In this document: one piece after another, positions 27,012-42,699 of the stretch
How the letters are laid out: every line of letters begins with the position of its first letter
Position numbering within the stretch: position 1 is the first letter of the stretch
Source of the DNA: a virus
Virus record (IMG/VR): IMGVR_UViG_3300037882_000819
Location: 1 to 43,081 of that record
Reading direction: 5' to 3' (one strand)
DNA: 43,081 nucleotides
Notes under the pieces: generated by a model
Told to the model about the DNA's origin: nothing
Seen by the model: the letters and a program-made list of their open reading frames with translations, nothing else
The model's database searches: none
Translations under genes and position numbers: made by a program

Positions 27012-28214
27012 ATGGCACATAGCAGTAATGTCACCGCTCTTGCGGTAGTGAAGCAGCCGGTCGCGGGGACATTCTTTGCTCCCACCGTCCCTGCCGCCCT
27101 GATGCCGATTTCGAACCTGCGCCCGCAGATCCAGAGTCAGACGATTGACAACGATGAATACACTGGCTCGTTCGCGCTCAATGCGGCGCAGGTGTCGGGC
27201 AAGACCGTCACCATGTCGTTTAACATCAAGGTCCGCCCACCTTCCGGCAACGCGGTTCCCGCTGCGGACGCCTACCTCCCCGGCCTGATTTTGCAGGCGG
27301 CGAAATTCACCGAAGTCCGCAATACTGCTGCTATCCCGGCGGCCCCTGAGGCGGTTGTCGCTGGCGCTGGCACTACCACAACCTCCGCCACTTTGGGCGC
27401 CGGAGCGGCTGCAACCCTTGATCTCTACAAGGGCTTCCCGATTGAGTTGAGTGATAACGGCACAACCGTAGCCAAGCGCATGTCTGCAATCACTGGTTAC
27501 ACCGCTGGCAAGGTTGCGACGCTGGCTGAAACACTGGCCCTCGCCCCGGCTGCAAACTACCAGATCCCGCGCTTCCTCGGTTACTACCGCTCGATCGACA
27601 GCAGCGCCCCCCCGTTGCTTTCGCTGCGCGGCTGGTATGGCGGCAATCGCTATGACATGCGCGATGTGGCCGTGACCGGCCTTCGCCTTGTCGTTCCCAC
27701 CAGCACCTCGGACGGCGCCGCGTGGCCCGAATTTGAAGTCACGATTTCGTGCATCATCGCCGATTATGTGGCCGAAGCGGCTCCGGCTGTTCCGGTAGGC
27801 GGGACCACCCCCTTCGCGCGCGATGGCGACCAGCACTTGAACCGCTTCCGTATTGGCGCCCGCTCTTTCAGCCTCGACTTGGGCATCACGTCCGAACGTC
27901 CGCCGAACCTGAATGAAGCGGATGGTTCGGAAGCCTCGCAATTGATCTCGACGCGGGCCAGTGCGACGCTTGAGCGCCAGCACTATGCCAAGAGCGTTTT
28001 TGACACTCTGGCGCTGGCCGACGCTCAAACACAGGTGCCGTTCTGGACGCAATACGGGACGGGCCTTGGCGGCATTGTCGGCATTGTCATTCCGGCTTGC
28101 CGCCTGAGCCATCCCAGCACTGACCTTGGCGGCACGTTCGTCAACGAAAGCGGCGACCTGCTGATTGACGCATTTGATCGCGGCGTTGGGATTTACTTCC
28201 CCACCGCCGCGTAA
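27012..28214 (+). CDS. Major tail tube protein
   Basis: The 400-residue product is beta-rich and has the siphovirus tube pattern: LRPQIQSQTIDNDEYTGSFA and GKTVTMSFNIKVRPPSGN near the N-terminus. An inserted Ala/Thr-rich region (about residues 110-180) follows, and FRIGARSFSLDLGITSERP near 280-300. The inserted section may be a surface domain, like the extra Ig domain of lambda gpV. AAGGAA precedes the start. Its place just before the chaperone pair is diagnostic. Confidence 0.83.
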   Translation: MAHSSNVTALAVVKQPVAGTFFAPTVPAALMPISNLRPQIQSQTIDNDEYTGSFALNAAQVSGKTVTMSFNIKVRPPSGNAVPAADAYLPGLILQAAKFTEVRNTAAIPAAPEAVVAGAGTTTTSATLGAGAAATLDLYKGFPIELSDNGTTVAKRMSAITGYTAGKVATLAETLALAPAANYQIPRFLGYYRSIDSSAPPLLSLRGWYGGNRYDMRDVAVTGLRLVVPTSTSDGAAWPEFEVTISCIIADYVAEAAPAVPVGGTTPFARDGDQHLNRFRIGARSFSLDLGITSERPPNLNEADGSEASQLISTRASATLERQHYAKSVFDTLALADAQTQVPFWTQYGTGLGGIVGIVIPACRLSHPSTDLGGTFVNESGDLLIDAFDRGVGIYFPTAA

Positions 28215-28238: not shown

Positions 28239-28982
28239 ATGCCCCACAGCATTCCGGTGGAGGCGAGCGATATGCTCGCCTTCACACCATCCTGCCTTGC
28301 CAACACGCCGGGCGCTCCCGTTTTCCACCTGCGCACAATCACATGGCGCGAGGAGCAGTATTACAAGCGCCTGTTGCGCGAGGCGACCCTCGTGCAGCAT
28401 AGCGAGTCCGAAATGCGCGAGACAATGCGCGAGGAATTGGAACGCCTTTGGACTTCGGAAGCATTCTCTCGCGCGATTGAGGTGCTTGAGGCGTATTGGC
28501 AGGCGGTCGATTCCTTCGCCTTGGAGAAGAAAGAGAACTCCGACGCGGCTTTTGACTTCGCCGATATGGCTGAGATTGACGATCTCGATGTGAACCTTCG
28601 CCGGTTCTCGCCTAAGATCGCAAGGATGGTGGCCGACAACGCTGAGGCAGCGGACGTTCTGCCCTTGCTGTTTGTCGCGGTGGCGGTTGCGCGGGTTGAC
28701 GGGCTTTCCGACCCTCTCCCCTATACCGGCGGCTTCCTGTCCATCGACGGCGCGGCTGCGATCATGGGCCAGTTGAAGGCCGTTGCTGGCGACAATGCTG
28801 GCACGGCTTGGGCCGAACTGATGGTGGCCTCTATTCGCCGGATGCGGCTCAGCGGTGAACAGGAAAAAAACTCCGAATCGCCGTTGCCGTCCGACACGCC
28901 CCCGGCGAGTTCGAACACGGCAACGGCCCCTGGGAAATCCCGCGCGTCGGAGCGATCGACCGAGACGATCTCAGAGGCGTAG
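28239..28982 (+). CDS. Tail assembly chaperone, gpG-like (unshifted form)
   Basis: The 247-residue product is helical, with a conserved-looking core (RTITWREEQYYKRLLREATL, then IEVLEAYWQAVDSFALEKKE) and a charged, Ser/Thr/Pro-rich tail from residue 210. The tail begins at the slippery codons 28863-28871, so it is the readout when ribosomes do not shift. The protein should coat the tape measure during tube assembly. AAGGAAAA precedes ATG 28239. The shifted form is listed separately. Confidence 0.82.
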   Translation: MPHSIPVEASDMLAFTPSCLANTPGAPVFHLRTITWREEQYYKRLLREATLVQHSESEMRETMREELERLWTSEAFSRAIEVLEAYWQAVDSFALEKKENSDAAFDFADMAEIDDLDVNLRRFSPKIARMVADNAEAADVLPLLFVAVAVARVDGLSDPLPYTGGFLSIDGAAAIMGQLKAVAGDNAGTAWAELMVASIRRMRLSGEQEKNSESPLPSDTPPASSNTATAPGKSRASERSTETISEA

Positions 28983-29152
28983 GCGATGAGTGCTACGCCA
29001 TGGTTCGCCTCCATTCGCAATGCGACCGGGGGATGGCTGGTCATGTCTATCCTGATGGCCGCGCTTTGCTCGATCAGCCTTTGGTCCTGCTCGATGCCTT
29101 CGCCATCATTGGCGATGCAAAGGCAGCGGTGAGCAAAAATGCCACGCCTTGA
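28239..29152 (+). CDS. Tail assembly chaperone, GT form made by -1 frameshift
   Basis: Ribosomes that slip one base back at 28865-28871 read on from 28871 in the -1 frame to TGA 29152. This gives a 304-residue product: 211 residues of the G frame plus 93 new ones. The new part reads as good protein (HGNGPWEIPRVGAIDRDDL, MAGHVYPDGRALLDQPLVLL, DAFAIIGDAKAAV), including a patch with CYAMVRLHSQC. In lambda the equivalent gpGT recruits tail tube subunits onto the coated tape measure. The extension fills the otherwise geneless gap before 29139, strong support that it is translated. Confidence 0.85.
28865..28927 (+). promoter_or_regulatory. Programmed -1 ribosomal frameshift signal
   Basis: The slippery heptamer A AAA AAC (28865-28871) is in the correct phase with the G frame (GAA AAA AAC). 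After an 8-base spacer there is a perfect stem, GCCGTTGCCGT (28880-28890) with ACGGCAACGGC (28917-28927): 11 pairs and a 26-base loop. Heptamer, spacer and stem together meet the classic requirements for -1 shifting. Confidence 0.88.
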
Positions 29153-29870
29153 GCCCCGCCTTGAACTGGACAATTACATTGGCCGGTATCGCCAGACGCA
29201 ATTGATCTTCGACCGGCGAATTGAGGCGGCGTTCTTGCGGGCAACCGACAAGGCGGCGACCGGCGCAAAGAATGAATTGCGCGAGGCGATGCAGTCGGCA
29301 CGGCTTGGGCGGCTTGGGAACGCCGTTGGCGCGAACTCCGACCTGAGCCGTGGCGATGGCGTTCACCGCAGCGCGACGGGCTTTTCAGCATCGGGCGTGC
29401 TGTTTGTCCGCAGCAAGTCGGAACGGACGTTGGGCGCTCTCGAAGCCTATACCCAAGGCGCTGATATTCGCCCGGTGCGCGGCCGTTGGTTGTGGGTTCC
29501 AACCGATGAGATCCAGCGCCTTGCAGGTTCGGGTTCAAAGCGCCGCCGTCTTACTCCCGGCAATTGGGATGAACTTGGCATGGAAAGCAAGATTGGCACG
29601 CTGGTCGCTATCCAGGGCATCAATGGCCGCCCGTTGTTCATTGTCGAGAATGTTGGCGTGAGCGCGTTGGGCAAGTCCCGCAGCGCTCGTTCGCTGACCA
29701 AATCGGGCCGCCCACGCAAGGGCCAGCGTGAGAAAGCATTCATCGTCGCCTTCATTGGCATCCCCGCCACATCACGCACCGCGCGGGTTCGCGTCCGCCC
29801 GATCGCTGCCGCTGCGCGGGATCGCCTGCCGCAACTCATCAATTCGTCGCTTGAGGACACATTTCGCTGA
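29139..29870 (+). CDS. Minor tail protein, DUF6441-like
   Basis: The 243-residue basic protein has an N-terminal helical region (YRQTQLIFDRRIEAAFLRAT), then LEAYTQGADIRPVRGRWLWV (about residues 100-120), the feature that recalls DUF6441 proteins of alphaproteobacterial phages. A basic C-terminal region contains FIVAFIGIPATSRTARVRV. It overlaps the end of the chaperone GT frame by 14 bases and the tape measure start as TGATG. A role in tail completion or as a Z-like connector is inferred from position. Confidence 0.68.
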   Translation: MPRLEPRLELDNYIGRYRQTQLIFDRRIEAAFLRATDKAATGAKNELREAMQSARLGRLGNAVGANSDLSRGDGVHRSATGFSASGVLFVRSKSERTLGALEAYTQGADIRPVRGRWLWVPTDEIQRLAGSGSKRRRLTPGNWDELGMESKIGTLVAIQGINGRPLFIVENVGVSALGKSRSARSLTKSGRPRKGQREKAFIVAFIGIPATSRTARVRVRPIAAAARDRLPQLINSSLEDTFR

Positions 29871-32800
29871 TGGCAAACGACTTTCCTGTCTATATCCGCG
29901 CTGAGTATCTCAAGGATGGCAAGGCTGAGGCCGCCTTTCTTGCTGATGCCCAAGGCATCCTCTCGGCACCGCGCCGTGAGTTTGCGCGCTTTGCTGAGGA
30001 AACGCAGGAAACCCTTCGCCGTGCGGTTGCACTGCCTCGTTCGGCCACCGGCTCCCTCGACCTTGGCACCAGCCAATTGCAGGAAGCCAAGCGGGTCCAA
30101 GACGCGCTCGCCATTTCGGCGCGCGAATATGCCAATGCGCTTTCCGAAGTCGCTTCAAAAGAAGGTTTTCGCAACCAAGCCACGCGCGATGCGCTCGCGG
30201 CGGCGAAGGAGGAGGCGCGAGTTCAGGAAGGGCTTTCCGCCAGTATCCGCGAGCGCATTCGCCTTGAAGATGCTGTTCAAGCGGAATTGGCGCAGACCAA
30301 ATCTGCAACCGACCAAGTGGTGCAGGCGCAGCGGCGCGGGACTACCGCAGATCAAGCGGTCATCAACTCGCGCGGCGCAATGCGACAGGCCGGCATTCAG
30401 GCCGGGCAACAGCTTCAAGACATGGTTGTGCAGTTCGAAAGCGGCACCCGCGCCACGACCATTTTTGCGCAGCAGGTTCCGCAGTTGGCTTTCGCCCTTT
30501 CTGGCCTTGAGGGTAGCGCGAACAAGACCGCCAACCGCATCGGGCAGTTCGCCACATTTCTATCTGGCCCCTGGGGCGCGGCGATCTTTGTTGCGACCGC
30601 CGTGCTTGGCCCGTTTGTGGCGAAACTGTTTGAGAGCGGCGATGCGTCAAAAGACGCGGAAGGTAAAACCTACGACTTCTCGCGCAGCCTCAATGTTCTC
30701 TCGCTCAGCGCGAGTGAGGCCACAAATGCAATGGGCCAATTGGAGCAAGCCACACGCGGCGCTATTGCGGTTCAAGGCGACTTCCTGCGTGCGCAGGTAA
30801 ACACGGCCAACCAATCAGTTGCAGGGTTGAACGCCAGAATCGCCGCTACACAACGACAAATCCAACAGTTGCAGTCTGAGAACAGCCCGATTGAGGGCGC
30901 ATTCCCCGGAACCGAAACGCGGGCGTTGCAGGCCGTCATCGGTAGGCTTCAATCACAGATCACCGCCGACAGGGCGGCCCTTGCCAGCGCAATAAGCGCG
31001 CAAGCGTCTGGTCAGATTGCGCTTTCGCAACAGCGCGACATTGAATCTCGCGACCCTGCGGCGGCGGCGCGGAATGAATACAACCGGCAGGTCGGTCAGA
31101 TTAATCAGAGGCGTGAGGCCAGCATCCGGTCTGCGGCAACCGACCCGCTTGCGAGGGTTGCGGAAGGTGGCTTCTATTCTCAGCAAGCATACGAGGCGGA
31201 CCTCGCGCGGCTGGGCAATACGCGTGATGCTGCGATAGAGGCTGACCGCGCCACGAACCGGAATGGCGCCACCCCCCGCGACACAAGTGGAGCAGACTTT
31301 CGCCGCGCTTCCGCAGAGGCCCGCCGCGTGGCGACAGAATTGCGCCAACTCGACGACTTTGCAGAGAAGGCCGCCGAAAGCATCGCTCGGATCAACGAGC
31401 AGTTCAACGAACAGCCGAAGCTCGTGGACCAAGCGGCTCAAGCGACCCGGCAACTGGACGCGATCATCGCCGACCTTGGGGAGCGCAAGCCTGCCAACTT
31501 CAAACAAATGATCCTGGACGCAGAAGCCGCCAAGGACGTTATCGAAGATGCACTCGTTCGCCCGTTCGAAGAACTTGAGCGGTCAACCGAGCGCCGGATG
31601 CAGTTGGACGAACTTGTCCTCGCAGGGCGTGAGGCTGAGGCCCGCGCGCTCGAAACCATTTGGCAGATTGAGCAGCAGCTTGGCCCGCTTTCGCAAGAGC
31701 GCGTCGATGATGTTCTGGCGATGGTGGACGCCAACGAGCGGCTGACCGAGCAACTTGAACTTCACCGCGAACAGCAAGAGGCATTCCTTTCGGCCACGAA
31801 ATCGCTGCGCGGGGAACTGGAATCGCTGTTCTCTGGCGAAGGCTTCAACATTGAGCAGATCGGGCGGCAGTTGCAGGCCCGCCTTTCGGTCGAGCGAATC
31901 TTCGGCGACGCGCTGCGCGAGATCGAGGATGAGGTAAAGTCCAGCTACGACACCGGCATTGACCTGTATGAAGCGGGCAACATTCGCGCGGCGGAATCGG
32001 CTGACCGCCTTGCGACCTCATTGGACGGTGCCGCCGATAGCCTTGACAATCCCGGCTCCAAGAGCGGTGGAGCAAAAGGGCTCGCCAAGGAACTGGCAGA
32101 CATTGCCAAATCGGCGACAAGCGCCGTGGGCGTGCCGGCCAACGATAATCTGGCCGACATTGTTGTCACCGCCACCAAGCGGGATGCGCGCACGATTAGC
32201 GGCATGTCGGCGGACGACTATTTCGATAGGGTTGGCCGCTTGTTGGTCGAGCCGCTTCTTGAAGGCTTTGACGAGATCGTCGGCGAGAAGTTGGCCGGCG
32301 AGATCAGCGGTATTCTCGGCAGCGCTGCGGGCGGCTATCTCGCCGCTGGGCCGGTTGGTGGCATCCTTGGCGCGCTCAAGGGTATTCCGGGCCTCTCTGG
32401 TAGCCCGCTGGTGGGCGGCGCTTTTGATGGGGCTGTGCAAGGCGCTCAAATTAACGCCATTCTGAAATCAATTGGCATCGGTGGGAGTAAGGCGGGGGCT
32501 ACCGTTGGCGGAGCGTTTGGCGGCGCGGCGAGCGCGATCACCGGCATCCCCGGCTTGGATAAACTTGGCGCGCTACTCGGCAACTTCGTCGGCGGACTAT
32601 TCAAGGGCAGCGAAAAGGGCAGTGCGAACATCGCGGGTGGGCGCCTGACGGGCATTGTTGGCGATAACAGGGAGTTCGAGCAAGCCGCCGGTCAATTGGC
32701 CGAAACCGTTCTTTCCTCGCTCTCTCAGATTGCCGATGACCTTGGCGCAACGCTCAATACGGCGGTTGGCAATGTTTCAATCGGCGTGCGGGACGGCAGC

Positions 32801-33685
32801 TACCGCGTGGACCCAACCGGGCGCGGGCTCACCAAAACCAAAGAGGGTGCGCTTGACTTTGGTGATGATGCAGAGGCCGCCGTTCGCGCGGCCATTCTCG
32901 ACCTCGTAAATGATGGCATCATCGCGGGGCTTTCTGCTGCGGAGCAACGCCTCCTGAAAGCTGGTGACGACATCGAGAAGGCGTTGCGTGACGTTCTCGA
33001 CTTCCGGGCGGTGTTCGACCGTCTCAAGGCGATTAAAGACCCGGTAGGCGCGCAGATCGACGACCTGAATGACGAGTTCAAGGGTCTGGTTGACCTGTTC
33101 ACCAAGGCAGGTGCGAGCGCCGCTGAATTTGCCCAATTGGAAGAACTCTACGGCATTGAGCGGGCGAACCTTATCCGCGAAGCAACCGAGCAAGTTGCCG
33201 GTTCTCTCAAGTCTCTCCTGTCCGATTTGAACATTGGCGACAGCGGGCTTTCGCTTCGTGAACGCCGGGCCAACGCGCAAACCGAATATGATGCGCTTGC
33301 GGCGCGGGTGCGGGGCGGCGACACAACCGCATTCGATGATTTCGCAGCATCGGCGCGGCAATTGCTGGAACTTGAGCGGACCATATTCGGAAGCCAAGCC
33401 GAGTATTTCCAACGGTTTGATGAGGTCCGGGCGCTCACACAAGGCGCGCTGACAAACCAGCAAGCCCTTATCGACACGGCGGCAAACCGGGATAACCCCT
33501 TCGGCACGACCGGAACGACACCATCGAATGCGCCGCTGATTGCAGCGATCGATGGGCAGACCAATGCCGTTGTCAGCCAGCTTACGGCGATGAACGACAA
33601 TATGGCGACGCTGATCCAGTTGCAATTGGCTGGTGGCGGGGCGGGGCAGTTCAACTATTCCGGCTTTGGGCGAAGCTACTTCTGA
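29870..33685 (+). CDS. Tail tape measure protein
   Basis: This 1271-residue protein sets tail length and probably leaves the tail during DNA entry. Its length suggests a tail near 190 nm (about 0.15 nm per residue). The N-terminal 470 residues are long charged helices around a hydrophobic section (RIGQFATFLSGPWGAAIFVA, about residues 220-240). Gln/Arg/Glu-rich coiled coils follow to about 690. A Gly/Ala-rich hydrophobic stretch (about 810-905, including GGILGALKGIPGLSGSPLVG) probably inserts into membrane. The C-terminus is again helical. No peptidase or lysozyme domain was recognised. Confidence 0.92.
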   Translation: MANDFPVYIRAEYLKDGKAEAAFLADAQGILSAPRREFARFAEETQETLRRAVALPRSATGSLDLGTSQLQEAKRVQDALAISAREYANALSEVASKEGFRNQATRDALAAAKEEARVQEGLSASIRERIRLEDAVQAELAQTKSATDQVVQAQRRGTTADQAVINSRGAMRQAGIQAGQQLQDMVVQFESGTRATTIFAQQVPQLAFALSGLEGSANKTANRIGQFATFLSGPWGAAIFVATAVLGPFVAKLFESGDASKDAEGKTYDFSRSLNVLSLSASEATNAMGQLEQATRGAIAVQGDFLRAQVNTANQSVAGLNARIAATQRQIQQLQSENSPIEGAFPGTETRALQAVIGRLQSQITADRAALASAISAQASGQIALSQQRDIESRDPAAAARNEYNRQVGQINQRREASIRSAATDPLARVAEGGFYSQQAYEADLARLGNTRDAAIEADRATNRNGATPRDTSGADFRRASAEARRVATELRQLDDFAEKAAESIARINEQFNEQPKLVDQAAQATRQLDAIIADLGERKPANFKQMILDAEAAKDVIEDALVRPFEELERSTERRMQLDELVLAGREAEARALETIWQIEQQLGPLSQERVDDVLAMVDANERLTEQLELHREQQEAFLSATKSLRGELESLFSGEGFNIEQIGRQLQARLSVERIFGDALREIEDEVKSSYDTGIDLYEAGNIRAAESADRLATSLDGAADSLDNPGSKSGGAKGLAKELADIAKSATSAVGVPANDNLADIVVTATKRDARTISGMSADDYFDRVGRLLVEPLLEGFDEIVGEKLAGEISGILGSAAGGYLAAGPVGGILGALKGIPGLSGSPLVGGAFDGAVQGAQINAILKSIGIGGSKAGATVGGAFGGAASAITGIPGLDKLGALLGNFVGGLFKGSEKGSANIAGGRLTGIVGDNREFEQAAGQLAETVLSSLSQIADDLGATLNTAVGNVSIGVRDGSYRVDPTGRGLTKTKEGALDFGDDAEAAVRAAILDLVNDGIIAGLSAAEQRLLKAGDDIEKALRDVLDFRAVFDRLKAIKDPVGAQIDDLNDEFKGLVDLFTKAGASAAEFAQLEELYGIERANLIREATEQVAGSLKSLLSDLNIGDSGLSLRERRANAQTEYDALAARVRGGDTTAFDDFAASARQLLELERTIFGSQAEYFQRFDEVRALTQGALTNQQALIDTAANRDNPFGTTGTTPSNAPLIAAIDGQTNAVVSQLTAMNDNMATLIQLQLAGGGAGQFNYSGFGRSYF

Positions 33686-42623: not shown

Positions 42624-42699
42624 GCCGGTGTAGCTCAGATGGTAGAGCGCCTGCCTTGTAAGCAGGGTGCCGTGGGTTCGATTCCTGCCGCCGGCACCA
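42624..42699 (+). tRNA. tRNA-Thr (anticodon TGT)
   Basis: The 76-base cloverleaf folds completely. The acceptor GCCGGTG pairs with CGCCGGC (one G-T), the D stem is GCTC/GAGC, the anticodon stem is CCTGC/GCAGG and its loop CTTGTAA gives anticodon TGT at 42657-42659. The T loop is TTCGATT, and CCA is encoded at 42697-42699. It should read ACA and related Thr codons. It may be the host gene flanking the prophage or a phage-carried tRNA. It is transcribed away from the phage, so its 3' end, the usual attachment half, faces the right edge of the window. Confidence 0.95.

Follow-up and report, generated by a model that had tools for sequence, protein, structure and literature searches.

The tail gene module and its overlapping frames

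The window is a virus record of 43,081 nucleotides (IMG/VR IMGVR_UViG_3300037882_000819), probably from a phage of alphaproteobacteria, and its plus strand carries genes arranged as in a lambda-type tail module (tube-like, G, T, DUF6441-like, tape measure). The first of these, at 27012–28214, encodes a 400-residue tail-tube-like protein, and in each of the 14 loci examined a gene for such a protein precedes G. Its assignment draws on this position and on weak family matches; no direct match to a family was found for the window protein, and within the tube-like family one member matches Phage_tube_2 (E 0.003) and one matches phrog_290, minor tail protein (4e-15). The gene that follows G and T, at 29139–29870, encodes a phrog_6367 protein, and its positional counterpart in Synechococcus phage MinM1 carries the annotation DUF6441 family. 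The 1271-residue tape measure protein lies two genes 3′ (29870–33685) and is recognized because parts of it match proteins annotated as tape measure in the Erythrobacter phages ZS04 (E 1e-10) and vB_EliS_R6L (E 5e-10). A tRNA-Thr (TGT) gene near the end of the record (42624–42699) could be phage-encoded or could mark an integration site.

The G open reading frame (28239–28982, plus strand) encodes a 247-residue product predicted to be an alpha-helical tail assembly chaperone. An AlphaFold model of G has a mean pLDDT of 85.5, with residues 222–245 below 50, and the Ser/Pro-rich C-terminal tail, disordered, is encoded by the 36 codons 3′ of the slip site described below. Relatives of G are 18–44% identical to it, and a search for related loci using the G part alone confirmed none. 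Fold searches of the PDB and BFVD with G and T found weak matches and no clear relative. The best PDB match for G (Z 3.8, rmsd 4.0 over 81 residues) is to an unrelated protein, and among the weak BFVD matches for G are several proteins that carry the name tail assembly chaperone or frameshift protein G (E values of about 1–6). Profile scans of 28 G and 30 T sequences against Pfam and PHROGs likewise returned no relevant match, and by this comparison G and T are uncatalogued protein families.

The T domain (28871–29152, plus strand) occupies the −1 frame relative to G. This frame is open for 93 codons, from CTC at 28871 to the TGA at 29150–29152, as the preliminary description had reported, and it overlaps the next ORF (ATG at 29139) by 14 nt. 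Modelled alone, T has a mean pLDDT of 87, and it is 59–67% identical to four relatives (L003, L004, L006, and L007). T is also better conserved than G, being 70, 60, and 44% identical in the first three relatives found, compared with 43, 36, and 27% for G. Beyond the G stop, 120 pairs give a median pN/pS of 0.51 for the T frame and medians of 1.03 and 1.64 for the two remaining frames, values that indicate purifying selection 3′ of the G stop in the −1 frame only. The G frame contains an ORF of 49 codons 3′ of the G stop, which, with the medians of the two frames other than T in view, was taken as a shadow of T. In two relatives, T carries an insertion of ~30–40 residues before the conserved C-terminal motif (L005:2776–3159 and L021:2779–3171).

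Over ~110 nt (28871–28982), the DNA is read in both frames, with the 0 frame encoding the disordered Ser/Pro-rich tail (SESPLPS...) and the −1 frame encoding the start of folded T. The distance from slip site to G stop is 36–40 codons in the 16 loci measured. Such a dual-coded overlap is unusual, exceeding the averages of 26 and 36 nt reported for two phage sets (PMC10885494).

The slippery heptamer and its conservation

The two frames meet at the heptamer A AAA AAC (28865–28871, plus strand), which is in phase with the 247-codon ORF from 28239, as first described, and is read there as GAA AAA AAC, with codons at 28863, 28866, and 28869. It is the only AAAAAAC in the window, against 4.9 expected from shuffles on both strands. 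A search with the −1-frame protein initially found three relatives, and the alignment of these led to 30 loci in viral contigs and three in genomes; removal of duplicates left 30 distinct loci, the window included, with a mapped site, and one further locus (L035) is too short for the slip site to be read. Two of the genome loci are prophages, in Croceibacterium xixiisoli (L033) and Altericroceibacterium indicum (L034), the former identical to viral contig L007 around the slip site. MinM1 (L036, ON981384.1; 83–403) has a T relative that is 33% identical and is preceded by A AAA AAC TGA, so that the 0 frame stops immediately. A tblastn search of annotated phages with window GT, L003 T, and L005 T gave no match, and an Rfam search gave none either.

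An alignment of homologues, which the preliminary description had proposed as a check, retains A AAA AAC at the homologous place in 29 of the 30 loci, with G GGA AAC in the remaining one (L019). Judged from these alignments, conservation at this place is far beyond chance. The heptamer is conserved as nucleotides because the codon preceding AAA AAC ends in A in all 29 loci, whatever its amino acid (GAA, GCA, AGA, ACA, ATA, or GGA, for Glu, Ala, Arg, Thr, Ile, or Gly), and because AAA makes up just 25% of Lys codons elsewhere in the G genes of these loci. A further, weaker T relative (L028) is without the heptamer; a slip on TTTT could connect its 0 and −1 frames (L028:2800–2900).

A run of seven A residues, as present in the window, might also allow RNA polymerase to add one A, yielding a GT message by transcription and a fusion protein identical to that made by a ribosomal slip. 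The run is seven residues long in 20 loci, however, six in nine, and three in L019, where the site is G GGA AAC; what has been kept is an in-phase X XXY YYZ heptamer, not a long homopolymer. Given the shorter runs in these 10 loci, we regard transcriptional slippage as very unlikely.

The possibility that T is a gene with its own start, or that a sequencing error has split a single gene into the two ORFs, is more remote still. The annotation of MinM1 does start T inside the domain, but the T frame of the window contains no start codon from its upstream stop (28856–28858, 9 nt 5′ of the heptamer) up to the conserved KKLRIAVAV. With the stop so close and a start codon absent between it and the heptamer, the T domain of the window can be reached only by slipping, and a free-standing gene for the full domain is excluded here from the reading of the frames. 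A T-frame start codon is absent between upstream stop and heptamer in 22 of the 30 loci, and in L014 and L019 the upstream stop is 6 nt 5′ of the heptamer. Sequencing error is excluded because the same arrangement recurs in 30 independently assembled loci, isolate genomes among them. The MinM1 record lists T as a 'hypothetical protein' beginning at an internal start, and the frameshift there was apparently missed.

Predicted RNA structure downstream of the slip site

An 8-nt spacer (28872–28879, plus strand) separates the heptamer from two segments, GCCGTTGCCGT (28880–28890) and ACGGCAACGGC (28917–28927), that form 11 perfect Watson-Crick pairs around a 26-nt loop, in agreement with the preliminary description. 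Stems of 11 bp occur at 0.04% of window positions, and the 60-nt stretch from 28877 has a folding energy of −29.7 kcal/mol (z = −4.0 against dinucleotide shuffles). When the coding sequence is resampled with synonymous codons, the window stem has P = 0.007 with all codons free and P = 0.17 with the 5′ arm fixed. Judged by composition, the stem is therefore beyond chance, but the excess shrinks greatly when coding constraints are considered. The suggestion that the 26-nt loop could form a pseudoknot found no support, the longest perfect pairing between loop and downstream sequence being 5 bp.

Nor is the claim of an 'unusually complete' cassette supported, since the exact 11-bp stem is found in the window only, the other 29 loci having 2–9 perfect base pairs under the same rules. 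The two arms differ in how they are kept. The 5′ arm lies inside a conserved dual-coded stretch, TCGCCGTNGCCGTC, where it encodes SPSPS in one frame and IAVAV in the other, and positions +6 to +19 after the heptamer, coded in two frames, are near-invariant (TCGCCGTCGCCGTC). The position of the 3′ arm varies among relatives; in their best helices, partners of the 5′ arm lie mostly at +35–60 or +70–95. On the question whether homologues keep the structure through compensatory changes, the tests disagree: the 5′ arm is strongly conserved and the 3′ arm is not positionally conserved, while the swap test given below is positive and synonymous recoding gives a weak result.

The stem may help the frameshift. 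The alternative is that the frameshift is real and the stem uninvolved, the heptamer acting with, perhaps, upstream elements and the stem arising as a by-product of GC-rich dual coding. This alternative we place somewhat short of an even chance. It gains from the confinement of the 11-bp stem to the window among 30 loci, from the appearance of the stem in 17% of synonymous draws with the 5′ arm fixed, from the Fisher P of 0.16 for synonymous recodings over the 30 loci, and from the fact that just 10 of 30 loci have a dinucleotide-shuffle z below −2. The same recodings, however, give a mean z of 0.86 and a Stouffer z of 4.7, in a set of loci that are not independent, and the mean folding z over nine segments compared is lowest at +5 to +65. 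A swap test also speaks against an uninvolved stem: 5′ and 3′ parts from one locus pair better with each other than after swapping (P 0.0002 for +30 to +100; P 0.014 for +30 to +60), in a comparison that is not corrected for relatedness.

A more specific proposal, which we consider improbable, is that the near-invariant TCCGNATCGCCGTCGCCGTC serves as the fixed 5′ half of a stimulatory RNA whose 3′ partner is mobile (about +35–60 or +70–95), within the ~110-nt dual-coded overlap. If so, the G/T family would have retained a stimulator of frameshifting whose pairing partner is unusually mobile.

Proposed mechanism and relation to known frameshifts

The locus very probably relies on programmed −1 ribosomal frameshifting as in lambda G/GT. 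The anatomy, the conserved heptamer, selection in the −1 frame, the missing independent start, and the gene order are read directly from the loci; the slip itself, its efficiency, a stimulatory role of the stem, and the proteins that the products bind are inferred. Most ribosomes would read GAA AAA AAC straight and end at 28982, giving G (247 residues). A minority would shift back by one base at A AAA AAC, perhaps helped by the GC-rich stem, and read on in the −1 frame as far as 29152. Their product, GT (304 residues), would have the folded 93-residue T in place of the Ser/Pro tail. If the analogy with lambda holds, the tape measure protein would be bound by G and the tube protein brought in by T, with the G:GT ratio setting tail assembly. 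The initial description of a G/GT chaperone pair stands in that a conserved −1 frameshift joins an ORF in the chaperone position to a −1-frame domain, flanked by tube-like and tape measure genes; neither part matches Pfam or PHROGs, and the 'tail chaperone' label is a prediction from gene position and mechanism.

The choice of AAC as the second codon of the slip site may relate to host tRNAs. The prophage-bearing Croceibacterium genome encodes tRNA-Lys with UUU and CUU anticodons and tRNA-Asn with GUU. Because tRNA-Lys(CUU) is present beside the UUU species and would re-pair poorly, an E. coli-type A_AAA_AAG might be disfavored in this host, and AAC may have been kept for that reason.

The frameshift is real and strongly conserved, and its mechanism is one already known. 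What the locus adds is two uncatalogued families, G and T, with about 30 natural variants of a single frameshift site, and an apparent misannotation of the T gene in at least one public genome (MinM1).

The G/GT mechanism is widely conserved among long-tailed phages (PMC5009743), and the −1 frameshift producing gpG and gpGT in lambda is among the closest known systems (Levin 1993; Xu 2004, 2013, 2014, as summarised in PMC5009743). As in lambda, a short chaperone and a rarer −1 fusion would come from one gene, with an X_XXY_YYZ site near the 3′ end of G, and this gene sits between those for tube and tape measure. Unlike in lambda, an extra DUF6441-like gene precedes the tape measure gene of the window, placing it one gene further off; G carries a 36-codon dual-coded tail; no known family related in sequence to G or T was found; and the heptamer is A_AAA_AAC rather than G_GGA_AAG, the lambda site given in the preliminary description. 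That description held the window site to be the stronger of the two, a view not supported by E. coli constructs, in which A_AAA_AAC shifts far less readily than A_AAA_AAG; G_GGA_AAG, lambda's site, is described as 'highly shift-prone' (PMC5009743). The HK97-like tail assembly chaperone cluster shows recoding of the same kind, there measured at 6–7% (PMC3711429), in what is, judging by the Pfam and PHROGs scans, a different protein family. A parallel in the site itself comes from haloarchaeal siphoviruses, whose hosts are archaeal. The likeness is one of heptamers: the g-t frameshift has been reported to use A_AAA_AAC in HCTV-2 and G_GGA_AAC in HCTV-1 (PMC5009743), and these are both of the heptamers found among the window and its relatives.
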